Part shown: one piece after another, positions 1 to 18,449 of the stretch
How positions within the stretch are numbered: the first letter of the stretch is position 1
Layout of the letters: every line of letters begins with the position of its first letter
NCBI GenBank assembly: GCA_012523775.1
Contig: JAAYTK010000062.1
Location: 1 to 64,000, forward strand
Length of the DNA: 64,000 nt
Origin: Clostridiales bacterium
GTDB lineage: Bacteria > Bacillota > Clostridia > Lachnospirales > Lachnospiraceae
Direction of reading: 5' to 3'
Program-made: the position numbers and the translations under genes
Notes under the pieces: generated by a model
What the model saw: only the letters and a program-made list of their open reading frames with translations
Told to the model about the DNA's origin: nothing
The model's database searches: none

Positions 1-117
1 ATTTGAGCCAACATTGGTGTCTTGATTATCACCGTCTTCCTTGTCCTTGGTTCCACATGCTGTCAAAGTAGCCATTGCCAACACTAAAACCATTAATATT
101 GCTAATATCTTCTTCAT
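1..117 (-). CDS. Partial lipoprotein (N-terminus only; continues off the left edge), probably a substrate-binding lipoprotein
   Basis: Minus-strand translation MKKILAILMVLVLAMATLTACGTKDKEDGDNQDTNVGSN: signal peptide with lipobox LTAC; RBS-like ggaggg upstream. Confidence 0.7.
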   Translation of the reverse strand, partial: MKKILAILMVLVLAMATLTACGTKDKEDGDNQDTNVGSN

Positions 118-212
118 AAAACATCCCTCCGTATAATGTTCGGTAACTTGTACCGTCATCTATATTATACTAAATCTAGTTTATTTTTCAACATAAAACT
201 CAAAGTATTGCA

Positions 213-806
213 TTATTTGGATTCCTGATGGCTTTGTTTTTTTAGCGCTTCTATGAAACACTGATAGCACATGGATGTATATGTATCATTACCTCCAATC
301 AGTATTTGCTCTCCTTCGGTTATAATCTTTCCGTCCTCTCCTTTTCTGACATTTACCGTCGCCTTTTTACCACAGGAGCATATGGTTTTAATTTCTGTAA
401 TGGAATCAGCTATTTCCATTAATCTTTTACTGCCCGGAAACATCTTAGTACGAAAATCGATTCTGAGTCCAAAGCAAAGCACAGGTATATCGTATTCTAT
501 GACTATCATCGAAAGCTGATCGACTTGAGCCTCTGTAAGAAACTGACATTCGTCGACAATTATCACATCCACCTTATTCTTCAGTTCTAAGAAACTTTTA
601 TATACATCCTCATCCGTTGACAGCTCATATGCCCTGGCCTCTAAGCCGATTCTTGACCTAAGCATTCCTTCTTTGTCTCTGTTATCGATGATTGGCTTTA
701 TAAGCCAAACACTCATACCCCGCTCTTCATAATTGAACTTGGTAATTAATGCCTGTGCTGTTTTTGAGCTTCCCATTACGCCATATTTAAAGTAGAGCTT
801 TGCCAT
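213..806 (-). CDS. tdk: Thymidine kinase (type II)
   Basis: GVMGSSKTAQAL P-loop, VDVIIVDECQFL Walker B, C-terminal zinc Cys pairs (CSCG, CYQC). Confidence 0.93.
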   Translation of the reverse strand: MAKLYFKYGVMGSSKTAQALITKFNYEERGMSVWLIKPIIDNRDKEGMLRSRIGLEARAYELSTDEDVYKSFLELKNKVDVIIVDECQFLTEAQVDQLSMIVIEYDIPVLCFGLRIDFRTKMFPGSKRLMEIADSITEIKTICSCGKKATVNVRKGEDGKIITEGEQILIGGNDTYTSMCYQCFIEALKKQSHQESK

Positions 807-825
807 AATACATCATCCTTTATAT

Positions 826-1323
826 TTAATTATTAATAAATTTAGTAAGCCTTTTTAATATTACCGCGGCGAGAATGCCTATAAGCGTTCCGCTGATAAC
901 TCCCGAAACCATTAATACCGGTAAATAATATAGCATTCCCATATTATTAACATATATTATAGCAACAATAATCTGCCCGATATTATGAGCGATTCCTCCA
1001 ATAATGCTGACTCCTACCATACTAAACAGCTTAAGCTTGAGAAAAACAGTCATCATAAGCCAGCTGAGGAATCCTCCTGCAAAGCTGAAAATCAAAGTCG
1101 AGGGATCTCTAAATGTAAATCCCACCAAAAGAATTCGTATCATGGACAGAACGAATGCTTCCTTAACACCGATACCGTATATGACTATGATAACCACCAG
1201 GTTAGCCAATCCCAGCTTTATTCCGGGTACGGGAAACGGTATCGGAAATAAGCTTTCAATATAACTGAATATAAAAGCCAATGCTATGAATAATCCGTAT
1301 AATGCAATTTTTCTTGATTTCAT
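826..1323 (-). CDS. Gx transporter / heptaprenyl diphosphate synthase component I-like membrane protein
   Basis: FIFSYIESLFPIPFPVPGIKLGLANLVVI motif and a hydrophobic profile typical of the family. Confidence 0.85.
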   Translation of the reverse strand: MKSRKIALYGLFIALAFIFSYIESLFPIPFPVPGIKLGLANLVVIIVIYGIGVKEAFVLSMIRILLVGFTFRDPSTLIFSFAGGFLSWLMMTVFLKLKLFSMVGVSIIGGIAHNIGQIIVAIIYVNNMGMLYYLPVLMVSGVISGTLIGILAAVILKRLTKFINN

Positions 1324-1355
1324 TATAACTCCTCTATGTTCATGGGGTTACCCAA

Positions 1356-1721
1356 TCATTCGGCGATAGCATCAAGATCGCTTTCCTCACCGCCAAATAT
1401 CTCAAGAACAACCCCATTAGGAAGGCATGTAATTCTCTCATTGGTATAATGAGCCTTTCCCTGCTTGACACACAGCTTATCGGGACAGCTTGCATCAATC
1501 ATCTTTACATATCCATCCCTTATTTCAAAGGTGTTCCATTCCCCATCATCATGCTCGATCTTATATGTTGTATCTTCATTTAAATAAAAGCTCATATATT
1601 CTTTTCCGTCTATTGTTACAATCAACCTACTGCCCTCGTTTTTGAATAACTGCATCAAAAGAAAACCGACGGCAATGAGTATAATTATAGAGCCCAGTAA
1701 ATAAAAATCGTTTTTTTTCAT
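1356..1721 (-). CDS. NusG domain II-containing protein
   Basis: One N-terminal TM helix and the CPDKLCVKQG...ITCLPNGVVLEI pattern of extracytoplasmic NusG-II proteins. Confidence 0.85.
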   Translation of the reverse strand: MKKNDFYLLGSIIILIAVGFLLMQLFKNEGSRLIVTIDGKEYMSFYLNEDTTYKIEHDDGEWNTFEIRDGYVKMIDASCPDKLCVKQGKAHYTNERITCLPNGVVLEIFGGEESDLDAIAE

Positions 1722-1816
1722 AATTCATACCTTAATATTATAAGGAGCAAGTGTTTTTATAGCTATGGTTCATTAGCTACACTTGCCCATTGTTAAGTAG
1801 TAATGATTCATTTTTA

Positions 1817-2599
1817 TCAGAACATTGAAAGAATCATATATATTATACCTACTGATACCAGTTCTACAGGCAGATTCTTAATTTCCCTGCTTATTCTTGA
1901 AAATATAAGGTATCTACGTATCGAAATATATAGTATAAGGACTATTGCTATGGTTATAACCATACTCACAGTAGGACTTATACTGTCGATTATAAAAGGC
2001 TGTATAACCAGGACCACCGGCAGAATAGTAATCAAACCGTCTGTATTCACAGCGTTTACATTTAAATCCTTATAGTAGATTCTGTTCAGAATGGCTATAC
2101 CTATGCCCGCCAGCAGAAACCCCATAACAGCCTCGGAGAAGCCATAAGAAAAATAATCCGATTCTGCTATCTTAAATCCGTATATAGCACCTGTGGCCAT
2201 AAACTCTCTTATAATTGATATTATTAGAAGTATAGCATATGCACCCGCTCCCTCAAAGAGAAAACGGCTATAATCCATATCATCTTCCGCATAAATAATA
2301 TGCTTTGATATTAATATTCCAAGGAAGACATGAAGTATATAAGTAGTGGTTTCGACCTTTAGGTTTAATACCGTAATTAAAACTATCTGAAATATAGAAT
2401 AAGTAAGGGATACCATAAGTATGATAATACATGCATTCCTGCTCCACTTAGGTATCATGTTTCTGAATATGCTGTCCAGCACAAGTCCAAGGGTAGTTAA
2501 GAGCATGATAAGAATACCCGTTATCAGGGCTTCTCTCATGTTCTGTGAAAAAACCACCATAGCCAGTGCAAATGCCTCCAGCGGATATCTTACCTTCAT
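1817..2599 (-). CDS. Divergent RnfA/RnfE (NqrD/NqrE)-like integral membrane protein
   Basis: Follows rnfG; IIREFMATGAIYG resembles the RnfE AIRE.LG.G.L.G motif; about 6 or more TM segments; a single Cys in the whole protein. Confidence 0.65.
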   Translation of the reverse strand: MKVRYPLEAFALAMVVFSQNMREALITGILIMLLTTLGLVLDSIFRNMIPKWSRNACIIILMVSLTYSIFQIVLITVLNLKVETTTYILHVFLGILISKHIIYAEDDMDYSRFLFEGAGAYAILLIISIIREFMATGAIYGFKIAESDYFSYGFSEAVMGFLLAGIGIAILNRIYYKDLNVNAVNTDGLITILPVVLVIQPFIIDSISPTVSMVITIAIVLILYISIRRYLIFSRISREIKNLPVELVSVGIIYMILSMF

Positions 2600-2623
2600 A
2601 TACTCTTCCTTTCTGAGAACTAA

Positions 2624-3142
2624 TTACTCCCCTGCATATGCGCTAATGAATTCGTATGCATTATTTACAAGCTTACGTATGGCATCGGTGGTTACCGTCG
2701 CACCGGAGATACCGTCGATTTCACTACTGTCAGCCCCTGACATTCCCTTAAACTGCTCCAGGTAGCTTTCATCTTCCATGTTTGCTCCATAACCGGGAGT
2801 CTCGGCATGGCTAACAACCTTAACCTCTTTAATAGTCTTTGCGTCACTTTCAAAAATAATTTCCCATGTTACAGGCTTATTCGGAGGAGCAAATCCCTTT
2901 GCTTCAGCTACTACAGAATATCCTGTGACGTTACCGCTGTCGTCAGTAAGTTCTCTGGCGGATGCAATTCCTTCAGCATCTGCTACATCTATAGCTCCGG
3001 GTAATTCCTCTGCAACCTGTTCTTTGTCCGCATTGTTATCGGCTCCATCCTTGGTTAAAATCTTGCTCCCATAAATAACTCCAAATGCAAGAACAGTTAC
3101 AACTGCTAAAGCAATAATACCTTTTAATCTACTATCCTTCAT
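2624..3142 (-). CDS. rnfG: Rnf complex subunit RnfG-like (FMN-binding domain)
   Basis: N-terminal TM, FMN-binding domain with DGISGATVTTDAIRKLV (SGAT flavinylation motif). Confidence 0.88.
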   Translation of the reverse strand: MKDSRLKGIIALAVVTVLAFGVIYGSKILTKDGADNNADKEQVAEELPGAIDVADAEGIASARELTDDSGNVTGYSVVAEAKGFAPPNKPVTWEIIFESDAKTIKEVKVVSHAETPGYGANMEDESYLEQFKGMSGADSSEIDGISGATVTTDAIRKLVNNAYEFISAYAGE

Positions 3143-3178
3143 AATATTTTCCTCTCTTTTTTATAATATTTTATACAA

Positions 3179-4147
3179 CTATCTTTTGTTATTTTTTAAA
3201 CCAACACCGTATATATGAGGTCTAATTATTGTATCGATCAGACCGGATAAGCAGTTTGCAACCAGAATTCCATAGCTTACGCCCTCAGGCAGTCTGCCCC
3301 AAATCCTGATTCCTGCTGTAACCACTCCGGCTATGATTGATAAGACCACCTTAACCCTTGGAGCAACCGAAGCATAATCGGTCATCATAAAGCAGGCTCC
3401 GAGAATTAATCCACCCGACATTAAATTAGTCAGTATATCTCCCTTAAACATTCCATCCTTTGCAAACACAAAGGTTATAAGCAAAACTGTCAGAACATAA
3501 GTACCCGCAGCCGCCAAATTAACAACTCTTCGATAACATAAATAAGCAAATCCAATTAACAACAGGAGTACACTGGTCTCTCCTATGCAACCCGGAATAT
3601 TGCCTATGAACATGTCCCATTTTGTGAACTGTGCGGTATCTGAGCCGGCCTTATACAATCCCAGAACCGTCGCTGAGCTTATAGCATCCGCACCGTTATG
3701 GTATGTCGTTACATAGTTGGATATTGATGCTGGCCACAGAAACATTAACAGAGCCCTACCCATTAATGCCGGGTTGGCAAAATTACTTCCTATTCCACCA
3801 AAGAATTGCTTTACTACCACAATAGCAAAGACGGAAGCCACCATTACTGCCCATATGGGTGTCGTAGAAGGAACATTAAACGCTATCAGCATACCGGTTA
3901 CAACTGCACTCCAATCACTGACAGTCAACTGCTCCCTTCTTATCTTCTGCCATATATACTCAGATAACAGACAGGTTGTGACACTGGCTAAAGTAAGAAT
4001 AAGCGAGTTGATTCCGAAGAAATATATGCCTCCCAATAAGGCCGGCAGCATTGCCAGAACAACATCCTGCATTATTTCCTTTGTTGATCTGTTCATGGTG
4101 ATATGTGGGCTTACATCATGTAATTGCTCGGCTACCTTTAGCTTCAT
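3179..4147 (-). CDS. rnfD: Rnf complex subunit RnfD-like
   Basis: SPHITMNRSTKEIMQDVVLAMLPALLGGIYFFG, GGIGSNFANPALMGRALL, and ADAISSATVLG (FMN attachment region). Confidence 0.92.
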   Translation of the reverse strand: MKLKVAEQLHDVSPHITMNRSTKEIMQDVVLAMLPALLGGIYFFGINSLILTLASVTTCLLSEYIWQKIRREQLTVSDWSAVVTGMLIAFNVPSTTPIWAVMVASVFAIVVVKQFFGGIGSNFANPALMGRALLMFLWPASISNYVTTYHNGADAISSATVLGLYKAGSDTAQFTKWDMFIGNIPGCIGETSVLLLLIGFAYLCYRRVVNLAAAGTYVLTVLLITFVFAKDGMFKGDILTNLMSGGLILGACFMMTDYASVAPRVKVVLSIIAGVVTAGIRIWGRLPEGVSYGILVANCLSGLIDTIIRPHIYGVGLKNNKR

Positions 4148-5496
4148 GATTTACTACTCCTCTCTTGTCTTTGCCTGAAAACCTCTGTCTTAGCCTCCGT
4201 AATACGATATGCTAATTCCCTCTTTGCAGGACAGACATAGGAACAGCAGCCACAGCTGATACATTCTGTTGCATAAAGCTTTTCACATAATACAATGTCA
4301 TTCTCTATGGCCGCATAATCAATTTTGAAAGGAGCAAGTCCTGCCGGACATACTCTCTCACATTCACCACAACGGATACAAGGGGACTCGACTTTTGTGA
4401 AATCCTCCAATACAAGCAGTCCTGAGGTGGTTTTAGTAACACTAAGCATTAAATCCTCTTTAGTGCCTCCAATCTGAATACAATGACCGGTCATAGGTCC
4501 CCCATCAATAACCCTGCTTGTCTTTGCTTTAAAATCTCCGGATAAATCAATCAATTCACTGAATCTGGTTCCGATAGGGACCAGATAATTACACGGCTCC
4601 TTCACTTTACCTGTAACCGTCACTACTCTGGTTATAAGCGGCTCATTGCCCAATACAATATCCGATAAAGCCTTCGCCGTTGCCACGTTATTGATAATCA
4701 CCCCGATACTGGCAGGTAGCTTACCTGCAGGCACTTCCATACCCATAACGGCTTCCACCAGCTGGCGTTCACCGCCCTGTGGATATCTCGTTGGCAAAAC
4801 TCTAATCTCTATAGGTAGGTCGTTCTTAAGTATAATATACTCAAAATCCTTGGCTACATCCTGTTTATTATCCTCGAAGCACAATATGGCTTTTTTTGCG
4901 GAAGCAGCCTTAATAAACAGGAGTATACCATTAATTATTGAATATCCATACTCCTTCATAAGAACATGGTCGCATGTCAGATAAGGCTCGCATTCGGCAG
5001 CGTTAATAAGAACATATTGAATATCTTCCTCAGTCTCATATTTTACATGGGTAGGAAAACCTGCTCCACCCATACCAATAATACCGCCTTCGACCATTTT
5101 AGATATAATGGTTTCTACGGTATATGAAGATATGTCTACCAGTCCCTGTTCATAATCGTTAGAAGCCCTTTTTGTATCTGCTTCTTTATCGTCGGCTTCA
5201 ATAACGATAATTTCTATATCTCTGCCCCAATCGTCCCTTATTGTCTTAATGTCATTAACCGTTCCGCTTATGCTGGCATGGATATTTGCCGAACCGAAGG
5301 ACACAGATTTACCTATTAAATCTCCTCTTGAAACCTTGTCTTTTACCTTAACAATTGCCTCGCAGACACTGTTAGGTGACTGCTTCATAGAAATCTCCAC
5401 TGATTTAGGTGTATACATACGTATCGGTACCTGATTACTTAACAGCTTATCAGTACCGTCAGCCGGATGAATACCGCCATGAAAATAGTGCCTCAA
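4144..5496 (-). CDS. rnfC: Rnf complex subunit RnfC-like
   Basis: GGIHP N-terminus, GMGGAGFPTHVK, two 4Fe-4S motifs (CIRCGECERVCP, CISCGCCSYVCP). Confidence 0.94.
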   Translation of the reverse strand: MRHYFHGGIHPADGTDKLLSNQVPIRMYTPKSVEISMKQSPNSVCEAIVKVKDKVSRGDLIGKSVSFGSANIHASISGTVNDIKTIRDDWGRDIEIIVIEADDKEADTKRASNDYEQGLVDISSYTVETIISKMVEGGIIGMGGAGFPTHVKYETEEDIQYVLINAAECEPYLTCDHVLMKEYGYSIINGILLFIKAASAKKAILCFEDNKQDVAKDFEYIILKNDLPIEIRVLPTRYPQGGERQLVEAVMGMEVPAGKLPASIGVIINNVATAKALSDIVLGNEPLITRVVTVTGKVKEPCNYLVPIGTRFSELIDLSGDFKAKTSRVIDGGPMTGHCIQIGGTKEDLMLSVTKTTSGLLVLEDFTKVESPCIRCGECERVCPAGLAPFKIDYAAIENDIVLCEKLYATECISCGCCSYVCPAKRELAYRITEAKTEVFRQRQERSSKS

Positions 5497-5765
5497 GCAT
5501 TAGTCCTCCTACATTCTGGTAGTTTTATATATCTAAATTATCATAATACGCGTATTATTAAATGTCAAGCAGTAGCATACAAATTAGTATCATTTAAGCC
5601 CATATATCTTTACTCCAAATACTCTCTATTAATATGCTCATAATTATTAAGTCACATTCAATTTAATCTTTTTTCTTCAAAATATTCCAATATTTTCTCT
5701 TATCTTTAACAAAAGACTCCTTACCCGAATATTATAATATATAGATTTCTGAAAGGAGTAACATT

Positions 5766-6818
5766 ATGTATCTTCTATTTTCTGCATTTTCAGTAGAATT
5801 TATTAAAGCTTCAATTCTATGGAGCTTATATATAGAGAATAAAGTCCTGGCCATAGTCTGTCTGTCAATGCTTTTATGTATTACTGCAGTTATAACCGGA
5901 CTACGTAGAAAAAAGATTAAAAAAGGAAAAGAAAAACCGGTTGTACGCCCTATAACAGATGTAATCGGAACCGATCCAAAAGTCGTGGAAGAACTGAATC
6001 AGGATTTAAGTACTTTTGGTTTCGCCTATGATATCTCGCAAGATATTTTCTATTCTCTTCTGAACTGCTGGCAAAGAAAATTCGGATATTTCAGATTATA
6101 TGATGAGGCAAGCGCTACTTTTAGTATGATAATCGACTGCGAGCCTATTTACTTTGAATACAACGGAATAAAATGGTTAATCGAATTTTGGAAGGGTCAA
6201 TACGGTATGACTACCGGCGGAGAGGTAGGAATCTACTATACCAAGGGTCCGGATCTTAACATCCCAGGTGTGTTTAACGGGACATTTTATTATTGTGTCA
6301 AGGATGAGGATATGATTAATATGTCCTTTGCCTTTAGAAAAAACGGCAATCTTTTATTTACTAGAAGTGATTACCATTGGTGGATTACCGGATTTAAACT
6401 TGCTGAGTTTTCACAACCTTCGGAACTCACAATGGACATTATCCTTGATTTATATGACCGACCGATGGCTGAAGCTTTTGTCAATGGCCTGAAAAAAGCC
6501 GGCTATACTGATGGCGAATATGCGATTCGGGGAAGAAGGGTCTATGTTCACTTTGATAAACCTCATACCCAACAACCATATACGCGTAATCCTCTAACCG
6601 TCCACCTTATGCAGCGTAATAATAGGTCGTATTGCGATGCCTATAATTATCTGACACAGGCATATTCTACTACAGTAGATAAGTTAATGTTCTTAAAATA
6701 TCGGTCACCGGAAATGTATAATCAGATATTAGCGATGGGTAAGCCCATTCAGGTATTTGAATCATATAACAAAATTAAGGATTTCCTTGATAATCGGTAT
6801 GAAGAACAGGGGGGATAA
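5766..6818 (+). CDS. DUF4474-like protein with N-terminal TM segment
   Basis: 350-aa ORF; WLIEFWKGQYGMTTGGEVGIYY and GFKLAEFSQPSELTMDI motifs; 1 nt from the next gene. Confidence 0.6.
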   Translation: MYLLFSAFSVEFIKASILWSLYIENKVLAIVCLSMLLCITAVITGLRRKKIKKGKEKPVVRPITDVIGTDPKVVEELNQDLSTFGFAYDISQDIFYSLLNCWQRKFGYFRLYDEASATFSMIIDCEPIYFEYNGIKWLIEFWKGQYGMTTGGEVGIYYTKGPDLNIPGVFNGTFYYCVKDEDMINMSFAFRKNGNLLFTRSDYHWWITGFKLAEFSQPSELTMDIILDLYDRPMAEAFVNGLKKAGYTDGEYAIRGRRVYVHFDKPHTQQPYTRNPLTVHLMQRNNRSYCDAYNYLTQAYSTTVDKLMFLKYRSPEMYNQILAMGKPIQVFESYNKIKDFLDNRYEEQGG

Positions 6819-6819
6819 T

Positions 6820-7731
6820 ATGCGGGTAAATAAAAGATTATCTCAGGTATTATCCTCTTCTCCCAAAATACCCTTTAATGATTATTCCAGAATTATAATA
6901 ATGAGTGATTGTCACAGAGGCGACGGAGGCTTTTCGGATAATTTTTCGGTTAATCAAAATATTTTTTTTGCTGCACTTAAATTTTACTACGAAAGAGATT
7001 TTACTTATATAGAATTGGGAGACGGCGATGAACTTTGGGAGAACAGGAAAATCGAAAGGATTATCAGCACCCATAGTGATGCTTTTTGGCTTTTATCACA
7101 ATTCTATAGAGAAGGCAGGTTTCACATGATTTTTGGAAACCACGACATAATAAAGAAGGATCCAAAATACTCAAAAACAAGCTGCAAATCCTTCTTCTGT
7201 GACAGTATAAATGCCGAGCTGCCACTTTTTCCCGAAATCAGAATACATGAAGGATTAATACTTGACTACTTACATGCTCCTATACAAATATTCCTTACAC
7301 ACGGACATCAGGCTGATATTCTAAATGATGCTTTTTGGAAATTATCGAGGTTCATGGTCCGCTATATATGGAGACCTTTAGAGCTAATCGGTATAAGAGA
7401 CCCTACCAGTGCTGCAAAAAACAATGAACGTAAGAGCAAGGTGGAAAAAAGGCTGGCAGACTGGTCCGCCAAGAATAATCAGATGATTATAACAGGCCAT
7501 ACCCATAGACCTGTCTTTCCACAGCCGGGGGAAGGTCTGTATTTCAATGATGGAAGTTGTGTTCATCCAAGATGTATTACGGGTATCGAGATTCAGAACG
7601 GAAGCCTTGCATTAATTAAATGGGCAATAATGACCAGGAATGACCGTTCTCTTTATGTAGGACGGGAGCTTCTTGAGGGTCCTGTCATGATAGAGGACTA
7701 TTTTCATATAATACAAAAAAGTGCTATGTGA
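6820..7731 (+). CDS. Metallophosphoesterase (calcineurin-like)
   Basis: SDCHRGDG, GDGDELWE, FGNHD and TGHTHRP motifs. Start trimmed to ATG 6820 from the track ORF at 6757. Confidence 0.88.
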   Translation: MRVNKRLSQVLSSSPKIPFNDYSRIIIMSDCHRGDGGFSDNFSVNQNIFFAALKFYYERDFTYIELGDGDELWENRKIERIISTHSDAFWLLSQFYREGRFHMIFGNHDIIKKDPKYSKTSCKSFFCDSINAELPLFPEIRIHEGLILDYLHAPIQIFLTHGHQADILNDAFWKLSRFMVRYIWRPLELIGIRDPTSAAKNNERKSKVEKRLADWSAKNNQMIITGHTHRPVFPQPGEGLYFNDGSCVHPRCITGIEIQNGSLALIKWAIMTRNDRSLYVGRELLEGPVMIEDYFHIIQKSAM

Positions 7732-7797
7732 TGATGCATGGGCAGTTATATACCTAAATATAGCTGCACCGTGCATCATTGTCATACAAGTCATATA

Positions 7798-7989
7798 CTA
7801 TTCCCGTAAATCTATTACACTGGTCGGACAACCGTCTCTTGCTTCTTCTGCTCTTTCCAGGCATTCCTTTGGTATATCATCCTCAATGGCCTCGGAAACT
7901 CCATCCTCATTATAGCTAAACACCTCCGGACAGACATCAATACATAATCCACAGCTAATACATCCGTCCTGATCAACGTATGCCTTCAT
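7798..7989 (-). CDS. Ferredoxin ([4Fe-4S], 63 aa)
   Basis: CISCGLCIDVCPEVF plus a distal C in DGCPTSVI. Confidence 0.9.
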   Translation of the reverse strand: MKAYVDQDGCISCGLCIDVCPEVFSYNEDGVSEAIEDDIPKECLERAEEARDGCPTSVIDLRE

Positions 7990-8134
7990 ATACAGACTCC
8001 TTTCCTGTTACTTATATTAATAATATTATTAAGGTTATTATGTTTAATTGAATTACAATTATTCCTATATAAATAATATTTCTTAATTTGTAAATTATAA
8101 GAATATGTACTCTATATAGCAACAGGAGGGGAAT

Positions 8135-8845
8135 ATGGAAATAGGAAAGGTTGTAATTTCATCCTTAGTGTCTTTAGGAGCATTATTTATTCTGACGAAA
8201 ATGATGGGTAACAGAGAAATGGCTCAGCTTAGTATGTTCGACTATATCAGCAGTATAGCCATAGGTTCAATTGCAGGCGAGATGGCTGCCATGTCTACTG
8301 AAAATCTAATCGAGCCTTTATTATCAATGACAATACTTTCATTATTTACCTTAACTATAAACTACTTAACATGTAAATCAATTATTCTCAGAAGGTTCTT
8401 TCAGGGTCAGGCGTTATTGCTTTATCAGAACGGACAAATTTATGAGAAAAATCTGTTATATGCCAAGCTAGATATAGGTGAATTATTGGCAGAATGCAGG
8501 GTTCAAGGCTATTTTAATTTAGAGGATATCCACACCATATTATTGGAAAGCAACGGTAAGCTCAGTATTCTTCCGGTATCGATAACCAGGCCGCTTACTC
8601 CTAATGATATCAATATATCTCCTGAACAAGACATGCCCATGGCAAATATAATCATCGATGGTAAAATCATGTCCGGTAATTTAAAATATACCGGAAAAAA
8701 TGAAGCATGGTTAAAAAAAAGACTGACACAGAAGGGAGTTTCCGATATTAAAGAAATAATTCTTGCCACATTTGACAATACCAAGGATGATATTAATGTC
8801 TACTTAAAGAATCATAAGAAATATAAAAATGACATTTTTGAATAA
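8135..8845 (+). CDS. DUF421 (YetF-like) membrane protein
   Basis: N-terminal TMs and MGNREMAQLSMFDYISSIAIGSIAGEMA motif. Confidence 0.88.
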   Translation: MEIGKVVISSLVSLGALFILTKMMGNREMAQLSMFDYISSIAIGSIAGEMAAMSTENLIEPLLSMTILSLFTLTINYLTCKSIILRRFFQGQALLLYQNGQIYEKNLLYAKLDIGELLAECRVQGYFNLEDIHTILLESNGKLSILPVSITRPLTPNDINISPEQDMPMANIIIDGKIMSGNLKYTGKNEAWLKKRLTQKGVSDIKEIILATFDNTKDDINVYLKNHKKYKNDIFE

Positions 8846-8902
8846 AGGAATGAAAGCCGCTAACAAAACATAAGATATTACGAGCTTTATGTTAGGGATG
8901 GC

Positions 8903-10012
8903 TTGTCTATGATGTCAAAGTATAAGGCCAAGCATATTATTATTTTTGAATTAATATTACTGCTTATTCTTTCATCGGCTCTGATTAAACAGGGTCTGGA
9001 TCAGGAGGCCGCCATGTATGCCTCCATGTATGATGGCGAAAAGAAATTTATTAAATGGGTCAGTTTTGATGTGAGTCATAAGGCCCTTGACAGGGCATAT
9101 CGTTATGACGTTGAAACCATAGAAGGCGAAGTACATCTGAACTGGATCGAGCTATTAGCTTATCTCGGTGCCAGATACGGTGGCGATTTTTCAAAGTATA
9201 AGGAAAAACATATGACCGATATAGCCAAAAAACTATTATCAGGAGAAAGTATAGATGACCTTACCAAGGATATGAAATACTACAATTATTATTATGAAGC
9301 ATATTCTGCCGTTCTGGGTGGTATGGTGGGTAAATATCAGATTGAGGTTAAGGACGAATCGGCTCCCGGAGGGAAACGATGGGAAGAAAAATACGGTCTT
9401 AAAGCCTTCCTTCCCATCGCTAAGTATTATCCATACAGTCATTTTGATGATTTCGGCGTATCGAGAAGCTACGGCTTTAGGAGAAAGCATCTCGGTCATG
9501 ATATGATGGGGCAGGTCGGTACTCCGATTATAGCTGTAGAATCCGGATATGTCGAGGCTCTGGGATGGAACCAATATGGGGGATGGAGAATCGGGATTCG
9601 AAGCTTCGATAAAAAAAGATACTATTACTATGCACATCTTCGTAAGAACTTTCCATTTAATAAGTCCTTAAAGGAAGGAAGTGTGGTATTGGCAGGAGAT
9701 GTTATCGGATATCTTGGGCGAACAGGATACAGCAGCAAGGAAAACGCCAATAACATACGAACACCGCACCTTCATTTCGGTATGCAATTAATATTTGATG
9801 AATCACAGAAGGAAAGCGTCAATGAAATCTGGATTGACTGCTACGATTTAATCTTATTCCTATATAATAACCGTTCGGAGACTGTCAAAGACCCTGAGAC
9901 TAAGGAATATCACAGAGTATATAATATGATTGATCCCGTTGCAGATGATTATATAAATCATCAAATCTATGATTATGATGATGAATATATCGATATACAT
10001 ATTTATGAATAG
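8903..10012 (+). CDS. M23 family (LytM/peptidoglycan endopeptidase-like) protein
   Basis: KHLGHDMMG (HxxxD) and PHLHFGMQ zinc-ligand motifs; TTG 8903 or ATG 8909/8912 start possible. Confidence 0.85.
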   Translation: MSMMSKYKAKHIIIFELILLLILSSALIKQGLDQEAAMYASMYDGEKKFIKWVSFDVSHKALDRAYRYDVETIEGEVHLNWIELLAYLGARYGGDFSKYKEKHMTDIAKKLLSGESIDDLTKDMKYYNYYYEAYSAVLGGMVGKYQIEVKDESAPGGKRWEEKYGLKAFLPIAKYYPYSHFDDFGVSRSYGFRRKHLGHDMMGQVGTPIIAVESGYVEALGWNQYGGWRIGIRSFDKKRYYYYAHLRKNFPFNKSLKEGSVVLAGDVIGYLGRTGYSSKENANNIRTPHLHFGMQLIFDESQKESVNEIWIDCYDLILFLYNNRSETVKDPETKEYHRVYNMIDPVADDYINHQIYDYDDEYIDIHIYE

Positions 10013-10023
10013 CTCATATGATA

Positions 10024-11124
10024 TCAATACTGCTGCTTTATATGCTTCCTCTTCAGTATACACAATAAACCAAAGAATACAGGTATAATATACTGAAAGA
10101 CCAGATTAATGTTCAAGATTATAAATCTGAAAAAATAATCGAATTCGAATTGTGTGGAGCTTACAATATAAGAAAGATAATAACTGATTATGGCCAAAGG
10201 CAGAAACAGAAAACCTCTCTCCCTTATCCCGAATAACCACTGAATCAATCGCATAAGAATAATAAACATAATACAGATTGTCACAAAATCCGATAGTATG
10301 CATATTAGTGTTACAAGAACCTCGAAGCGTTCAAATATATTAAAAAATGATATACTCTTTACGGTAATATAAAATGGAAAGGGAAGGTTGGCAGTCAATG
10401 CAGCACCCGTTATTCCATAAGTAAATATGGTTATAACAAAGCTAATAAATATAAAAATTATTGAACCTGACCAAAGCCTTCTTATTTGTTTTTTAGAGAG
10501 TGCTATCCCTAATTTATCGGCAAAGAACAGTATAAGAGTCAGATTGCCTCCAACAGCTATTACAGCCTTTGAAGCCCTGATGGTTGATGGAAAATTAATT
10601 GTTGACATAGGAAAAAGATAATCCGTTCTCAATCTGCCAACAGCACATACGAATAAAACTCCTATTAGAAGAATAATCGGTCCCAAGGCAAATTCCGAGA
10701 ATCTGAAAATCGTTTTGCTTCCCCTAAGAAGCGCATAATAAACCAGAATAAGTATGATCTGCATGAAGAAATCCGACCTGGTCTTTGGCATCAGGGTAAA
10801 CTGTAGTGTAAGAGAGTATATGTTTAGCTTTGCAGAAAGAGAAATTAAAATCCAGAATATATAGAGTAAAGTTATAAACTTCGCAAATACTCTCCCGCTT
10901 AGATGTACCATTATTTCATATAAATTAAGTCCCGGAAAGGACCTGATAAGAAGTAATATTCCAGCTGTAAGAGGCAATATGGCAAATACAGACCAAAATG
11001 GGCTTAAATATCCTCCTCTACCGGCTTCCCTTGCCAGCATAGAAGGTATTTGTCTTAAAACCGGAGAAAGAGATATAAACAGATACATAAATACAACCTG
11101 TCGCATAGTTAACTGCTTATTCAT
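10024..11124 (-). CDS. Spore germination permease, GerAB/GerKB family
   Basis: 10-TM APC-like protein, second partner in a gerA-type operon. Confidence 0.88.
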   Translation of the reverse strand: MNKQLTMRQVVFMYLFISLSPVLRQIPSMLAREAGRGGYLSPFWSVFAILPLTAGILLLIRSFPGLNLYEIMVHLSGRVFAKFITLLYIFWILISLSAKLNIYSLTLQFTLMPKTRSDFFMQIILILVYYALLRGSKTIFRFSEFALGPIILLIGVLFVCAVGRLRTDYLFPMSTINFPSTIRASKAVIAVGGNLTLILFFADKLGIALSKKQIRRLWSGSIIFIFISFVITIFTYGITGAALTANLPFPFYITVKSISFFNIFERFEVLVTLICILSDFVTICIMFIILMRLIQWLFGIRERGFLFLPLAIISYYLSYIVSSTQFEFDYFFRFIILNINLVFQYIIPVFFGLLCILKRKHIKQQY

Positions 11125-11133
11125 ATAGATACC

Positions 11134-11322
11134 TCATTTCATATGTTTTTCCAAAGTATAGACAATGCTTGGAATGTACGGATAAATCATTCGGACAATT
11201 CCTAATGCAAGGCCTATCACAGACAAAAGCAGAAAAAGACAAATATTGCGCTTCTTTTTTAATAATTCATCCTTCTCCTTTATGAACGTTATTAAGAGTA
11301 AGCCTCCAAAGACATATATCAT
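11134..11322 (-). CDS. Small membrane protein in the germination operon (62 aa)
   Basis: Two predicted TM segments; fits between gerC-like and gerB-like genes. Confidence 0.6.
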   Translation of the reverse strand: MIYVFGGLLLITFIKEKDELLKKKRNICLFLLLSVIGLALGIVRMIYPYIPSIVYTLEKHMK

Positions 11323-11344
11323 TTTAACCTCCGTTTAATCTTTA

Positions 11345-12436
11345 CTAGTTTAGAATGAATGATTTTGTAATCTGTGAGTTAACGTTAAATTCATATTCTA
11401 TCTCGGATATTTTATCCTTCCAATTATACTCATACTCACTCCATTTTCTTGTATGCTGATTTTGAATCAATCTGGCTATCTGAAGAATATCTCTGCCTGT
11501 ATTTTTCGAATAGTCTGTGGCCTTTTTCATTATTTCGATTATATAATCATTCTGCATATCAGTGAGACGATTAAGCTCTTCAAAGGTAAATATATCTTCC
11601 CTTATATTAATTTCCTTAATCATTGTTTCAAAATCCAATTTAATGACAATTCTAATACTATTATCCTGTATCTCTGATTTTATATGACTCTTTGAATAGG
11701 ATATGGATAAACCTACATTATCATCTAGATATATTGGATAGGCTCTTATTATATCCTTAATAAAATTAACTCCGGAAGAGGTCTCCATATCAAGATAGTC
11801 CGCCAATATATTATTTTCGAATACCGCATATCCCTGTAATAGGAACGAGCCCTCCTCTGCAACCAGATATGGTATGATTCCGATTGTTATATCATTTTCC
11901 AATTCATTCAATACATTAACTAAGGTGTTATCATTTCTTGTGACAAGCTCCTCCTGCTTTTGCTCAACAGCCTTCATATCTTCATGTATTATCTGGCCTT
12001 TTTCAAGGCTTTGTGCAATAAATTCAGATGCATCCATATCCTTTGTAACAAAGAGTAAGGATTCCATTTTGACTGTCTCATCTCTGGAAAGAAAATCAAT
12101 GCAAATGTCCAACCCCCTTTTAGCTGCCCCCTCACCCAAAAGAAAGAATCCTGTATTTGCTATTGATACAGTCTTTTTGTCCTTCAGTCTAAAGTTTTGA
12201 AAAGCCGCATAAGGAGTGGCACCTGAACCCTTAGATGTTACTTCCTGACCGGCGGAGCCCTTCTCGGTATCTGCTCCCTTTTCTCCGCTGTATAATGCAG
12301 TAATTACATACTCCCCATCTGAAAAATCTATCCCGATGACATGAACCAAATTTATCTCGTCTATTTCTCTGCGGTTCATATCATGACTGCATCCACAGAT
12401 TAAAATGGGAAAAAGCAATATTATCAGCTTTTTCAT
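11345..12436 (-). CDS. Ger(x)C family spore germination lipoprotein
   Basis: Lipobox LICGCSHD, NRREIDEINLVHVIGIDF motif. Confidence 0.9.
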   Translation of the reverse strand: MKKLIILLFPILICGCSHDMNRREIDEINLVHVIGIDFSDGEYVITALYSGEKGADTEKGSAGQEVTSKGSGATPYAAFQNFRLKDKKTVSIANTGFFLLGEGAAKRGLDICIDFLSRDETVKMESLLFVTKDMDASEFIAQSLEKGQIIHEDMKAVEQKQEELVTRNDNTLVNVLNELENDITIGIIPYLVAEEGSFLLQGYAVFENNILADYLDMETSSGVNFIKDIIRAYPIYLDDNVGLSISYSKSHIKSEIQDNSIRIVIKLDFETMIKEINIREDIFTFEELNRLTDMQNDYIIEIMKKATDYSKNTGRDILQIARLIQNQHTRKWSEYEYNWKDKISEIEYEFNVNSQITKSFILN

Positions 12437-13881
12437 AACCTATCCCTCCGCTCACTCTGCATTGACTTACGCTTTTGAAAGTATTTAATCGGGAAACGGA
12501 ATATCGTATCTCTTATATTTCTCTCCTCCACATCAACAAAAGGTGATATATAGGCTATACCGTAATTGTTCAGGCTGCAAAGATGTGTTATGAGTATTAT
12601 TAATCCGATTGCAAGGCCAAAAAAACCGGCCACAGCCGCCAATACCGTAAGTAAAAATCTGGACAACCTTATACCACTGCTTAAGTCCTGGTTAGGCATG
12701 ATAAACCCCGATATCCCTGCCAACGCGACTATTACTACGACCGCCGGTGATATAAGATTTGCCGCAACAGCCGATTGTCCTACCACCAGACCACCGAGAA
12801 TCGACATGGCTGTGCCTACGGCTTTCGGAAGCCTTAAACCTGCTTCTATCAAAATCTCAAATGATATCAATAGCCCCAGCACTTCTGATGCGGAAGAAAA
12901 AGGTACATTTTGCTTGGCTGCCTGTGTCGACAGAGCAAGCTGTACCGGCAGCATCTGAACCTGATAGGTAGTTGCCGCAATATAAAATGCAGGCAAAAAT
13001 AAAGTAACTATCATAGACATATACCTAATGATTCTAAGAGAGGATCCTATAAAGAAATGGTTTGCATAATCGTCCGGAGACTGCATCAGCATGGGAAGCT
13101 GGCATGGCAGAAGGTACGCAAAGGGTATCCCGTCCACCACAAGTGCCACTCTTCCGTCAGATAAATTAGCGGCAACCCGATCAGGTCTTTGCGTATACAT
13201 AATCTGCGGAAAAATACTGTGTTTGTTCTCGACCAGAAACTCCTCTATAAATGCAGGAGTAGATATATTGTCAATATCTATTTCGTTAATGATAGTGCGT
13301 ATTTTGTTCACAGTTGCCGAATCGGCAATACCGTTTATATATATTAAGGCTATGTCGGTTTTTGATATACGACCGGCTGATAACGTTTCTACAACCAAAT
13401 GCTCCGATCTGATTCTTCTTCGGATTAATGCAGTGTTCATACGCATAACTTCAATAAAAGATTCCTTAGAGCCCTTCATCACATTCTCTTCCGAGGGTTC
13501 CTGAATAGATCTTTTCTCAAACATTCTTATGTCATATACAATAGCTTTTTCTTCGGTATCAAATATTAATGCCACCATTCCGCTCAGAACATATTTTAAT
13601 AAGAGCTGATAATCAGCTTCTTCCTTGGTAAACACATGATAGGTACCGCCTTCCAATAAATAATCCATCATAGCCCGCTCTGTCATGCAGCCGCTTAAAT
13701 ATGGGTCAAATTTCAGTGACCTGAATACCGCCTCATCAAATAATGACTGATTTATTAGCCCATCCACACAAAATAAATGTACGGTTATTCCGTTCTGGTT
13801 GATTTTTATCGGTCGGACAATTACGTCTCCACTATTATTAAAGAGCTCCTTAAGCCAAGCCGAATTTATTCTGTTCATCAT
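12433..13881 (-). CDS. Spore germination protein, GerA family
   Basis: DIALIYINGIADSATVNKIR, TQRPDRVAANLSDGRVALVVDGIPFAYLLP motifs. Confidence 0.93.
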   Translation of the reverse strand: MMNRINSAWLKELFNNSGDVIVRPIKINQNGITVHLFCVDGLINQSLFDEAVFRSLKFDPYLSGCMTERAMMDYLLEGGTYHVFTKEEADYQLLLKYVLSGMVALIFDTEEKAIVYDIRMFEKRSIQEPSEENVMKGSKESFIEVMRMNTALIRRRIRSEHLVVETLSAGRISKTDIALIYINGIADSATVNKIRTIINEIDIDNISTPAFIEEFLVENKHSIFPQIMYTQRPDRVAANLSDGRVALVVDGIPFAYLLPCQLPMLMQSPDDYANHFFIGSSLRIIRYMSMIVTLFLPAFYIAATTYQVQMLPVQLALSTQAAKQNVPFSSASEVLGLLISFEILIEAGLRLPKAVGTAMSILGGLVVGQSAVAANLISPAVVVIVALAGISGFIMPNQDLSSGIRLSRFLLTVLAAVAGFFGLAIGLIILITHLCSLNNYGIAYISPFVDVEERNIRDTIFRFPIKYFQKRKSMQSERRDRL

Positions 13882-14043
13882 ATACAGCCCTCACCTTAAC
13901 AAATATAGAGCAAATATCTATATCTATATTTTCCTTATAATACCGAAAATATGCAAAATATCGGAATAAAAATAAGGCTCCTGCATATTATGCAAAAGCC
14001 CATTGTCTGAATTCCTAATAATTTATCTTTAGTTAAAAACGGA

Positions 14044-14304
14044 TTAATAGAAGTAGTCATCTATCATATCCTTAATATGTACCGGAAACACCATTCCCTT
14101 AGCTAATATCTTCAGAAATAATTCTGCTTCACCTTCATCATCTGTAATATTTTCTACATAGCAATAATTATTCGTTTCATTATCATTACTTCCAACTCTT
14201 ATACATTCTAAGCTATAGAGTGCGTTTTTAAAGATTAGATTATAAACAATTTCAATATTCTCATCTTTTGCAGAAGTAGTTATGGTTCTTAATGACTGGC
14301 TCAT
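14044..14304 (-). CDS. Small DUF6514-like protein
   Basis: 86-aa ORF; YSLECIRVGSNDNE...VENITDDEGEAELFLKILA pattern; family call is tentative. Confidence 0.5.
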   Translation of the reverse strand: MSQSLRTITTSAKDENIEIVYNLIFKNALYSLECIRVGSNDNETNNYCYVENITDDEGEAELFLKILAKGMVFPVHIKDMIDDYFY

Positions 14305-14542
14305 AATAACTAGTCCACCCCTTTAGTATAATATTTATAATTAATTATATCAGTTATCTTAAAATAATAATATATGAATTCATGATTTTAATTATGTAAT
14401 TAATAGAACAGAATCCATAATACACCAGTCACTAATACATAAAATGAATATATAGGCAAACTATCTCACTTATAAACAAATTAAGGTTTAAATATATGTA
14501 AGGACAAGATTATGCAGTCAAATAATCCTGTCCTGAAAGTTC

Positions 14543-17500
14543 TTATAATTCAATCGGTTCTACTTCTGCCATTTGCTTATAAACAGAATACCGTTCCTTA
14601 GCCTGCCTTTCGGCCCGTGCAAATAATTCTTCGGCAGCCTCAGGATATGCCTTAGCCAATGAACTATAACGTACCTGTTGCATTATATATTCCCTAAAGC
14701 TTTCCGTTGGCTCCTTTGAATCAAGAATAAACGGATTCTTTCCCTCCTTCCTCAGCATTGGATTATATCTGTAAAGATGCCAATATCCGGCCTGCACCGC
14801 CTTCTTTATATTAGCCATGCTTCTGCCCATGCCTTCCTTGATTCCATGATTTATACAGGGGGAATAGCATATTATAAGCGAGGGACCCTTATAGCTTTCT
14901 GCCTCTCTTAATGCCCTGATAAGCTGTGTATTATCTGCATGTATCCCGACCTGAGCAACATAGACATTTCCGTAGGTCATCATCATCCTTCCCAGATCCT
15001 TTTTCCCCTGCTTTTTCCCGGAGGCGGCAAACTTAGCGATGGCTGCCGTCGGTGTGGACTTGGATGCCTGACCGCCTGTATTTGAGTAAACCTCTGTATC
15101 AAATACAAGCACATTCACATCCTCGCCGGAGGCAAGCACATGATCCAACCCTCCATAGCCTATATCATAGGCCCATCCGTCGCCGCCAACAAGCCAAATC
15201 GACCTTTTTGAAAGATAATCCTTATTATCCTTAATATCATCAACCAGATTCATTATTTCCACATCGGTCGAGGTAAAATCCTCCAGTAAATTCAGTAATT
15301 TTTCACCGGCCTTCGACGAAAGCTTTCCGTCCTCTTTATAGTGAATCCAGTCATGAAACGCTTCCTTTAGCTTATCCTCTATATTCATTCCGTTAAGTTT
15401 TCTCATTGTTTCTTCCAGTTTATTTCGTATTTGCTTTACTCCCAAGTACATGCCAAAGCCATATTCCGCATTATCCTCAAACAGCGAATTAGCCCAGGAA
15501 GGACCCTTACATTCTTCATTTACGGTATAAGCCGTACTTGGAGCGGAGGATGCCCATATGGATGAACAACCGGTGGCATTGGCAATCATCATTCTCTCAC
15601 CGAATAACTGAGTAACAAGCTTAATATATGGGGTCTCACCGCAGCCTGCACAGGCTCCCGAAAATTCAATCAAAGGAGGCATGAATTGACTGTCCTTAAA
15701 CGACTGTCCATATGCCAGATCCTTCTTAAATCGAACCTTGTCGATAGCAAATTCCCAATTGGGTATTTCATTGGGAAGCTGACTTTCAATGGGTTTCATG
15801 ATTAATGCCTTGCCCTTAGCGGGACATATGTCGGCACAATTACCACAGCCTGTACAATCCATAGGACTAATCTGAATTTTATAATGAAGTCCCTCAAAGG
15901 CTTTGCCGGTTGCCTTCTTTGTAACGAAGGTTTCCGGTGCCTGACTCAACTCATCATCGTTTAGTAAAAACGGTCTGATGACAGCATGGGGACATACCAA
16001 TGAGCATTGATTACATTGAATACAGCGCTCGACAATCCATTCAGGAACGTTCACCGCTATGCCTCTCTTTTCATAGGCTGTGGTTCCGGACGGGAAACTA
16101 CCGTCCTCTCTGCCTGAAAATGCACTGACAGGAAGCTCCCCACCCTTCATCTCAGACATTGGACGCATTACTTTTCTAATAAATTCCGGTTCTTTTACTT
16201 TATCCTCGTCATCATCCTTCAAATCTATCCAGTCCGCCGGTATCTCTATCTCCCGTATGGCATTGATACCCTGATCTACGGCTTCATGATTCATCTTTAC
16301 TACCTTTTCACCCTTATTGCCGTACATCTTAACGATGACATCCTTAAGCTCCTTAATATAGACATCTTCAGGCAGTAAATTAGTAAGCTTAAAAAAAGCT
16401 CCCTGCATTACCATGTTAATTCTATTCCCAAGACCTATCTCTTCAGCTATTTTAATTGCGTTGACGGTGTAAAAACGTGCTTTCTTTTTAGCGAGCTTTC
16501 GCTTCATCTTTGAAGGAAGTTGTTTATTGAGCTCCTCCTCATTCCATTGAGTGTTGAGCACAAATATACCTCCCGTTTTTAAGCTCTCCAACAGATCATA
16601 CTTATTGACATATGATGGATTGTGACACGCAACATAATCCGCATTATTGACCAAATACGTCGAGCGTATCGGATGATTGGAGAATCTCAGATGAGATACT
16701 GTTACTCCTCCTGATTTCTTAGAATCATAGTCGAAATATGCCTGCACCTTCATATCTGAATTGTCACCAATAATCTTAATGGCCTGTTTATTGGCTCCGA
16801 CTGTTCCGTCTGATCCAAGCCCCCATATCTGACAAGCCTTCAAATCCTCCGGCTCCACATCTATACCCTCTATAGTTTTTAGAGATGTCTTTGTTACATC
16901 GTCGATTATTCCGATTGTAAATGAATTCTTTGGTTGTGACTGCTTTAAATTTTCATATACTGCAGCGATCTGACCCGGTGTTGTATCCTTGGACGCAAGA
17001 CCGTATCTTCCGCCAACTATCAAGGGCGGATTTGCCACATCCTTATATGCCGAGCATACATCCACATAGAGAGGTTCACCGACTGCACCGGGTTCCTTGG
17101 TTCGGTCCAGAACGGCGATTGCTTTGACGGTTGACGGTATCGCTTCCAACAGATGACTGACAGAAAACGGCCTGTATAAACGGACCTTAATAAGTCCGTA
17201 CTTTTCACCTCTATTATTATAATAATCGATGGTCTGCTCTATTGTCTCGGTTACAGAACCCATGGCAATAATTACATACTCTGAATCTTCGGCACCATAG
17301 TAGTCAAACAGATGATATTGCCTTCCTGTTATCTTCGCCATGCTGTTCATATACTCTTCTACAGTATAGATTAAATCATAGTAAAATTGATTTGAAGCCT
17401 CCCTGCCCTGAAAATATATATCAGAGTTCTGCGCAGTTCCCCTAAAGAAGGGATTATTAGGTGAAAGTGCACGCTCTTTAAATGCTTTAACCGCATCCAT

Positions 17501-18088
17501 ATCCAATAGCTCTGCGTAATCCTTATATTCCATCAAATCTATTTTCTGTACCTCATGAGAGGTGCGAAATCCATCGAAGAAATGTACAAAGGGCAGGCGT
17601 CCTTTTACTGCAGACAGGTGTGCTATCGGAGCTAAATCAGCCACCTCCTGGACAGATCCCGAAGCAAGCATAGCACATCCTGTCTGTCTTACTGCCATCA
17701 CATCCTGATGATCGCCAAAAATACTTAGAGCATGTGTAGCTATAGCCCTGGCACTTACATGAATGACACCGGGAAGAAGCTCTCCTGCTATCTTATAAAT
17801 ATTCGGTATCATAAGCAATAGACCCTGTGAAGCCGTAAAAGTGGTTGATAGTGCCCCTGCCTGCAAAGACCCGTGAAAGGCACCGCTTGCCCCGGCCTCT
17901 GACTGCATCTCCACCACATTCACTGTCTGACCGAATATATTCTTTCTTCCGCCAGCAGCCCATTCATCAGTTGACTCGGCCATACCTGAGGACGGAGTAA
18001 TGGGATATATGGCCGCAACCTCGGTAAAAGCATAGGCTACATAAGCCGCCGCTGTATTACCATCCATAGTCATAGAAAGTTTTGCCAT
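14543..18088 (-). CDS. nifJ: Pyruvate:ferredoxin (flavodoxin) oxidoreductase
   Basis: About 1181-aa single-chain PFOR: AAAYVAYAFTEVAAIYPITPSS, two 4Fe-4S motifs, TPP GDGWAYDIGYGGLDHVLASGEDVNVLVFDTEVYSNTGGQ. Start trimmed to MAKLSMTMDGN. Confidence 0.96.
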   Translation of the reverse strand: MAKLSMTMDGNTAAAYVAYAFTEVAAIYPITPSSGMAESTDEWAAGGRKNIFGQTVNVVEMQSEAGASGAFHGSLQAGALSTTFTASQGLLLMIPNIYKIAGELLPGVIHVSARAIATHALSIFGDHQDVMAVRQTGCAMLASGSVQEVADLAPIAHLSAVKGRLPFVHFFDGFRTSHEVQKIDLMEYKDYAELLDMDAVKAFKERALSPNNPFFRGTAQNSDIYFQGREASNQFYYDLIYTVEEYMNSMAKITGRQYHLFDYYGAEDSEYVIIAMGSVTETIEQTIDYYNNRGEKYGLIKVRLYRPFSVSHLLEAIPSTVKAIAVLDRTKEPGAVGEPLYVDVCSAYKDVANPPLIVGGRYGLASKDTTPGQIAAVYENLKQSQPKNSFTIGIIDDVTKTSLKTIEGIDVEPEDLKACQIWGLGSDGTVGANKQAIKIIGDNSDMKVQAYFDYDSKKSGGVTVSHLRFSNHPIRSTYLVNNADYVACHNPSYVNKYDLLESLKTGGIFVLNTQWNEEELNKQLPSKMKRKLAKKKARFYTVNAIKIAEEIGLGNRINMVMQGAFFKLTNLLPEDVYIKELKDVIVKMYGNKGEKVVKMNHEAVDQGINAIREIEIPADWIDLKDDDEDKVKEPEFIRKVMRPMSEMKGGELPVSAFSGREDGSFPSGTTAYEKRGIAVNVPEWIVERCIQCNQCSLVCPHAVIRPFLLNDDELSQAPETFVTKKATGKAFEGLHYKIQISPMDCTGCGNCADICPAKGKALIMKPIESQLPNEIPNWEFAIDKVRFKKDLAYGQSFKDSQFMPPLIEFSGACAGCGETPYIKLVTQLFGERMMIANATGCSSIWASSAPSTAYTVNEECKGPSWANSLFEDNAEYGFGMYLGVKQIRNKLEETMRKLNGMNIEDKLKEAFHDWIHYKEDGKLSSKAGEKLLNLLEDFTSTDVEIMNLVDDIKDNKDYLSKRSIWLVGGDGWAYDIGYGGLDHVLASGEDVNVLVFDTEVYSNTGGQASKSTPTAAIAKFAASGKKQGKKDLGRMMMTYGNVYVAQVGIHADNTQLIRALREAESYKGPSLIICYSPCINHGIKEGMGRSMANIKKAVQAGYWHLYRYNPMLRKEGKNPFILDSKEPTESFREYIMQQVRYSSLAKAYPEAAEELFARAERQAKERYSVYKQMAEVEPIEL

Positions 18089-18101
18089 CTGATTCTCTCC
18101 T

Positions 18102-18296
18102 TTATAATTTACTTCCGTTATCAACCCATTCTTTTGCATCGATGACAGCCTCTTCACAGGGCTTGCCGACCATATCAACCTTGTAAAAGCCTTCGAAATT
18201 CTGCCACGCCGCCGTGCCCTCCTTATTTGTAGGTTCTATCTTCCCGAGCCTTTTATTCTCCTTACCGTGAAAATTATATTCATCCTTAACGTTCAT
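18102..18296 (-). CDS. Uncharacterised 64-aa soluble protein immediately upstream of PFOR
   Basis: RBS-like aggaggta upstream; 13 nt from the PFOR start on the same strand. Confidence 0.55.
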   Translation of the reverse strand: MNVKDEYNFHGKENKRLGKIEPTNKEGTAAWQNFEGFYKVDMVGKPCEEAVIDAKEWVDNGSKL

Positions 18297-18417
18297 AAAA
18301 TACCTCCTTAATAAATTTAATCTGCAGTTTACTGACTTAGTATGTATACATTGTTTCCCTTTTCACGGCTATCTATTACTAAATTCATTTTTTATTGAAT
18401 AGACGAACCATAAAAAA

Positions 18418-18449
18418 GACTGTTAAATGCTCCGTGTCATTTAACAGTC
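18418..18449 (-). terminator. Rho-independent terminator after degV-like gene
   Basis: Perfect 12-bp stem GACTGTTAAATG/CATTTAACAGTC followed by TTTTTTAT on the minus strand. Confidence 0.85.

Follow-up and report, generated by a model that had tools for sequence, protein, structure and literature searches.

Gene content of the cluster

The window analysed here is a stretch of 64,000 nucleotides from a Clostridiales bacterium of the Lachnospiraceae (assembly GCA_012523775.1, contig JAAYTK010000062.1, positions 1 to 64,000), and this study concerns a cluster of six genes related to the Rnf complex at positions 826-5496. All six open reading frames (ORFs) were confirmed there on the minus strand, in the order rnfC, rnfD, rnfG, RnfE-like, NusG_II and Gx, with tdk (213-806) coming next after Gx. 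A preliminary description of this DNA had given this order, with the fourth gene as RnfA/E-like. Its statement that rnfB and one of the paired RnfA/RnfE subunits are absent also holds, as neither rnfA nor rnfB was found in the cluster by the ORF list or by family searches. We propose, with a probability of roughly 0.7, that the cluster is a reduced second Rnf paralogue which serves as a quinone-independent electron conduit from NADH to extracytosolic flavin. The features are as follows.

5540-5568, minus strand: promoter-like TTGACA-17-TATGAT, 5' of rnfC2 (consensus match only)
4144-5496, minus strand: rnfC2, RnfC of 450 amino acids (aa), binding NADH and flavin mononucleotide (FMN); TIGR01945, 8e-123
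4345-4380 and 4228-4263, minus strand: two 4Fe-4S motifs of rnfC2
3179-4147, minus strand: rnfD2, RnfD/NqrB membrane flavoprotein, 322 aa; TIGR01946 rnfD, 4e-80
3668-3679, minus strand: SSAT flavinylation-type motif of rnfD2
2624-3142, minus strand: rnfG2, predicted extracytosolic FMN_bind protein; FMN_bind, 7e-16; aligned with the congener and others
2696-2707, minus strand: SGAT flavinylation site of rnfG2
1817-2599, minus strand: RnfE-like protein without [2Fe-2S] cysteines, 260 aa, an RnfE/NqrD-like part plus C-terminal helices
2429-2431 and 2174-2212, minus strand: lone Cys codon and RE..G...G motif of the RnfE-like gene
1356-1721, minus strand: NusG_II membrane-anchored protein (EetA-type); PF07009 NusG_II, 1e-26
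1470-1487, minus strand: CPDKLC of the NusG_II protein
826-1323, minus strand: Gx, EetB-type substrate-binding subunit of the energy-coupling factor (ECF) type for export of flavin adenine dinucleotide (FAD); PF07456 Hpre_diP_synt_I, 3e-41

The start codon of rnfC2 is TTG, and AGGAGG lies at 5505-5510. Neighbouring genes are closely spaced (-4 to +95 bp), so it is plausible that the six genes form a single transcription unit. The overall number of promoter-like sites across the region is not above chance, and an Rfam search of window positions 1-20000 returned no match. PF03116 is the sole above-threshold domain of the window RnfD, which is not fused to the NAD-binding domain PF00175.

The fourth subunit and the loss of the [2Fe-2S] ligands

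Sequence matches of the fourth gene product are weak, with Pfam Rnf-Nqr at E=0.01 (below the cut-off) and NqrD at 1e-5. An AlphaFold2 model was built from a 31-sequence alignment (predicted local distance difference test, pLDDT, 85), and its nine best matches in the PDB are all NqrD/RnfE chains with a probability of 1.00 and a target TM-score of 0.57-0.61. BLAST with the protein found the RnfE of its own genome (5e-4) and not its RnfA. Because the structure matches NqrD/RnfE and BLAST finds RnfE only, we assign the protein to the RnfE/NqrD type and not to RnfA. Judged by the model, the subunit is a diverged RnfE-type protein with additional C-terminal helices.

RnfA and RnfE each supply two Cys to a [2Fe-2S] cluster buried in the membrane, and in Acetobacterium woodii ferredoxin-dependent NAD+ reduction needs these ligands (PMC11889175). 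Both Cys columns are occupied in 42 out of 42 RnfE and 16 out of 16 RnfA sequences. In place of an RnfA/RnfE pair with four ligating Cys, the module has one RnfE-like subunit, and the ligands are missing in all 36 sequences of this family. A homodimeric [2Fe-2S] cluster held by other Cys was considered and rejected, as the window protein has one Cys, which is too few. The RE..G...G motif in common with RnfE is retained, and the RnfE-like gene is always present with the core quartet. Its role is most likely that of a structural scaffold for RnfD and RnfG.

The same retention would also fit a conduit that still pumps Na+ or H+. In that case the non-redox RnfE-like protein would move ions together with RnfD, and ion export would be powered by the downhill passage of electrons from NADH to an acceptor on the outside (e.g. 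fumarate). RnfA/RnfE of A. woodii have been proposed as the Na+ path (PMC11889175), and on general bioenergetic reasoning an uncompensated outward electron transfer costs membrane potential. However, gating is proposed to occur when the [2Fe-2S] cluster is reduced, and the module cannot form this cluster; canonical transport also needs an A/E heterodimer whereas the module has a single subunit. We therefore regard ion pumping as unlikely.

Cofactor motifs in RnfC, RnfD and RnfG

RnfC, RnfD and RnfG of the module carry the cofactor motifs of canonical Rnf. All eight 4Fe-4S Cys are kept in 32 of 32 module RnfC proteins, and the flavinylation Thr is kept in 33 of 33 module RnfD proteins. NxxNPA and TDY are likewise intact in these RnfD proteins; the Asn and Asp named as riboflavin ligands in PMC11889175 probably belong to these two motifs. 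The flavinylation motif of RnfD has shifted from [ST]GAT to mostly SSAT. The preliminary description correctly noted that the flavin and 4Fe-4S motifs are kept, but the SSAT that it named for RnfD is a drifted variant of the canonical motif. Module RnfG retains one to four flavinylation motifs where found; in the window, the SGAT in this FMN_bind protein is of the [ST]GA[ST]-like type used by ApbE, and flavinylation is predicted.

The electron path of canonical Rnf runs from ferredoxin over RnfB, the [2Fe-2S] cluster of RnfA/RnfE, RnfG, RnfD and RnfC to NAD+ (PMC12174285). With the cluster ligands lost and the motifs of RnfC, RnfD and RnfG kept, the module has shed the inward half of Rnf and retained its NADH side. 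Judged by its genes, the module holds only the RnfG-RnfD-RnfC leg of this path.

A second system beside canonical Rnf

A search of the genome for a complete Rnf operon found rnfC-D-G-E-A-B with its own C/D/G genes on another contig (C78). The window module is therefore a second system and not a broken first one. Exactly two FMN_bind proteins are encoded in this genome, one per Rnf system, and there is no orphan rnfA or rnfB that would indicate a split operon.

Having both systems in one cell is common: 25 out of 29 module genomes also have a canonical RnfA/RnfE pair. The module might thus be an accessory or duplicate subunit set that uses RnfA, RnfE and RnfB of the canonical complex, all the more as three loci (L132, L134 and L136) have the canonical operon immediately upstream of the module. 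Against this, three genomes (G303, G309 and G316) have the module without a canonical RnfA/RnfE pair, namely the isolates Lachnoclostridium An131 and An138 and the metagenome-assembled genome (MAG) Merdimonas BRZ_AC; a fourth pair-less genome, G315, was left out as it is a fragmented MAG with a canonical RnfD at a contig end. The module need not borrow those subunits, and it possesses an E-fold subunit of its own. Furthermore, 31 module RnfD proteins form one clade with a support of 100/100 on a long stem, separate from the canonical RnfD of the same genomes. A dependent subunit set is accordingly very improbable, and we rejected a split operon or borrowed subunits as the main explanation of the cluster, given the complete operon elsewhere and the three pair-less genomes.

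The tree points to a single origin of the module. The arrangement in L132, L134 and L136 suggests that it arose by tandem duplication of rnf.

Several variant loci were seen. RnfB-like neighbours in L105/L040 and L069 (Blautia) and in L129 turned out to be EFR1 ferrodoxin or a short ferredoxin and not RnfB; the EFR1-family ferrodoxin gene lies directly upstream of the module at L105 6838-7596 (Blautia genome, L040), and L069 is similar. Orphan rnfC-rnfD pairs without rnfG, rnfE, rnfA or rnfB occur at L102 11033-13315, L103 4387-6668 and L106 5081-7349; their RnfD flavinylation motif is degraded and the host genomes are without canonical RnfA/RnfE. One Lachnospiraceae genome has a module in which RnfC and RnfD are fused into a single protein of 886 aa (L135 10677-13337).

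Output domains of RnfG and the apbE gene

In most relatives the RnfG slot holds one to three PplA-like units. PplA is the electron-transfer flavoprotein of extracellular electron transfer (EET) in Listeria and Lactiplantibacillus (PMC9973259, PMC9888254). The NCBIfam PplA model NF041941 matches RnfG2 of Blautia sp. An81 with 5.6e-28, and the RnfG of L134 has three FMN_bind domains in tandem. At L130 (1268-3115, 615 aa) the slot is taken by a membrane-anchored FMN_bind domain joined to a fumarate reductase of the flavocytochrome c3 type, which matches PDB 1qo8 (1.5e-122) and TIGR01813 flavo_cyto_c. Characterised flavocytochrome c-type fumarate reductases are extracytosolic (PMC8238504). The fusion of RnfG to such output domains points to outward electron flow.

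The reverse, electron uptake, would have an extracytosolic donor oxidised via RnfG and NAD+ reduced at RnfC. Canonical Rnf runs in this sense, from RnfG over RnfD to RnfC (PMC12174285), and the direction cannot be read from sequence. The inserts and fusions, however, are PplA-type output proteins and a terminal reductase, and no module-linked extracytosolic dehydrogenase was seen. We consider uptake improbable.

A full-length apbE adjoins the module in 24 of 36 loci. It also does so in a congener with a single-contig genome (L129), which has the same flanks as the window, DUF4474 and a phosphoesterase-like gene, with apbE between the flanking genes and rnfC and a PplA-like unit within RnfG. 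In the genome of the window, the search for apbE found one copy, on contig C103. More distant relatives carry the RnfG insert, and loss in the window species is therefore the simpler reading of its difference from the congener in apbE and insert.

At L009 6227-11023 the only apbE of the genome adjoins a weakly PplA-like lipoprotein that consists of two units and bears an SSVT motif. Nearby genes, named by eye, encode an HxlR-type regulator and a fusion of the CcdA-TlpA type; this locus is perhaps a DsbD-type flavinylation system.

Flavin supply genes

We take the NusG_II protein to be EetA. It stands beside the PF07456 ECF-type protein, as in an EetA/EetB pair, and the two are predicted to be flavin supply genes. 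PF07456 corresponds to EetB, which is of the ECF type and exports FAD for ApbE (PMC9973259). The mention of EetA/EetB-type genes in the preliminary description was thus correct for Gx, but the association with Rnf is neither new nor particular to the module. Of the 29 genomes, 28 encode NusG_II, almost all of them in a single copy; in many it neighbours canonical rnf, in others the module. Relatives carry Gx and NusG_II next to one or the other Rnf operon, so the two genes are not peculiar to the reduced module, and colocalisation of eetB with Rnf in 572 Clostridia genomes is already published. Their coupling to the cluster was consequently dropped as its new feature.

Distribution and constraint

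Scanning a one-genome-per-species collection for the RnfE-like family gave 36 contigs, mostly of Lachnospiraceae, with Blautia, Lachnoclostridium, Mediterraneibacter, Merdimonas and other members of the family as the main hosts. About ten further module loci are more diverged. On every contig of sufficient length the gene order is rnfC-rnfD-rnfG-RnfE-like. The module was present in 14 of 299 genomes (13 of 298 genera) of a family-wide sample, and in a phylum-wide sample the genome of the window was the sole match. Strong module matches are confined to the order. The class-level matches L107-L113 were rejected as relatives: those inspected proved to be normal, Cys-bearing RnfE, encoded either next to canonical RnfD or within canonical operons.

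One could take the cluster for a functionless, decaying remnant of an Rnf duplication, given its reduced gene set and a window species without the apbE and the RnfG insert of its congener. The frames, however, are intact in dozens of genomes and the cofactor ligands are invariant. Between window and congener, the RnfE-like gene has 0.27 nonsynonymous (dN) and 1.9 synonymous (dS) substitutions per site, with substitutions biased to third positions, and from this comparison purifying selection is evident. With dN so far below dS, decay is largely refuted and is the least credible of the explanations considered.

A search of the open literature returned no description of an rnfCDG-without-B module; the search covered open-access sources, and a description elsewhere may exist.

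The proposed electron conduit

In the conduit that we favour, RnfC would oxidise NADH and pass electrons over FMN and its two 4Fe-4S clusters to the riboflavin and covalent FMN of RnfD, which would carry them across the membrane to the covalent FMN of extracytosolic RnfG. From there they would reach a surface acceptor, in relatives through a relay, either PplA-like or with several FMN, or through a fumarate reductase fused to RnfG. The whole would correspond to the exit arm of canonical Rnf working backwards, with the ferredoxin entry at RnfB and the buried [2Fe-2S] relay of RnfA/RnfE dispensed with. The RnfE-fold protein would stay as a scaffold without a cluster, and NusG_II and Gx would provide ApbE with FAD outside the membrane. 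The observations behind this proposal are the gene content, cofactor motifs, ligand loss, conservation, fusions and independence from canonical RnfA/RnfE; electron direction, acceptor, ion coupling and the scaffold role are what we infer.

The preliminary description had already suggested an outward conduit derived from Rnf instead of a pump driven by ferredoxin and NAD+. The loss of ligands in the RnfE-like protein, the output domains of RnfG and the independent occurrence of the module are new support for this, and the adjacent apbE agrees with it; outward direction remains the probable one. Several points weigh against it. Electrons could in principle flow in reverse, and the Gly of the flavinylation motif in module RnfD is mostly replaced by Ser, Gln or Ala. 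A single draft genome supplied the only instance of the fumarate reductase fusion. The window lacks the syntenic apbE and the PplA-like insert in RnfG, its only ApbE being on another contig, and the lipoprotein next to that gene matches PplA weakly (hidden Markov model, E=0.09) and is at most a candidate PplA.

Comparison with known systems

Canonical Rnf (RnfCDGEAB) has homologous RnfC, RnfD and RnfG with cofactor motifs, and its RnfE shares the RnfE/NqrD-like fold of the fourth module gene. The module differs in having no RnfA or RnfB, in the missing [2Fe-2S] Cys of the RnfE-like protein and in the EET-type output domains on RnfG of relatives, and it usually coexists with a complete Rnf.

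The NQR/RNF-like systems described by Meheust et al. in 2021 (PMC8238504) and followed up in 2024 (PMC10979944) are also partial Nqr/Rnf sets with an FMN_bind partner, proposed to transfer electrons one way from NAD(P)H to extracytosolic FMN. They consist of two subunits, in which NqrB/RnfD carries a fused NAD-binding domain like that of NqrF, and occur mainly in Actinobacteria and the Candidate Phyla Radiation (CPR). The flavinylation site of their RnfD is not conserved, whereas module RnfD keeps the Thr, and the module has a true RnfC as its NADH side and an RnfE-fold subunit. It resembles them in logic, yet is a different assembly.

With Gram-positive flavin EET (Ndh2-DMK-PplA-EetA/EetB-FmnB; Listeria, Lactiplantibacillus) the module shares PplA-like domains, apbE and the NusG_II/Gx flavin-export genes. 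UbiA (PF01040) was not found in the genome of the window (G000) nor in 16 of 19 other module genomes; it is present in 3 of these 20 and in 14 of 14 controls. As UbiA is mostly missing, the quinone-dependent Gram-positive route is unlikely and no demethylmenaquinone route is expected; RnfC and RnfD of the module would stand in for Ndh2 and quinone.

Flavinylated extracytosolic fumarate reductase-like enzymes (FMN_bind + PF00890) resemble the RnfG of L130 with its FMN_bind and flavocytochrome c domains. The characterised ones receive electrons from components encoded elsewhere, while the L130 reductase occupies the rnfG slot of a conduit operon.

Implications

Among the dominant fermenters of the gut are Lachnospiraceae such as Blautia, which are thought to depend on fermentation and a single Rnf pump. 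With a conserved conduit, some of them could unload electrons onto acceptors outside the cell and would need neither quinones nor cytochromes for it. As a natural dissection of Rnf, with the entry arm removed and the exit arm kept, the module makes the idea of modular halves in Rnf/Nqr testable, and its surviving RnfE-like subunit can reveal whether the RnfE fold does more than hold a cluster. More tentatively, and we think this doubtful, the module could be an Rnf-derived reductase from NADH to an extracytosolic acceptor in which the [2Fe-2S]-free RnfE-like protein couples outward flow to ion export, and hence a quinone-free respiratory enzyme of a new class. If so, Lachnospiraceae would respire on surface acceptors such as fumarate.

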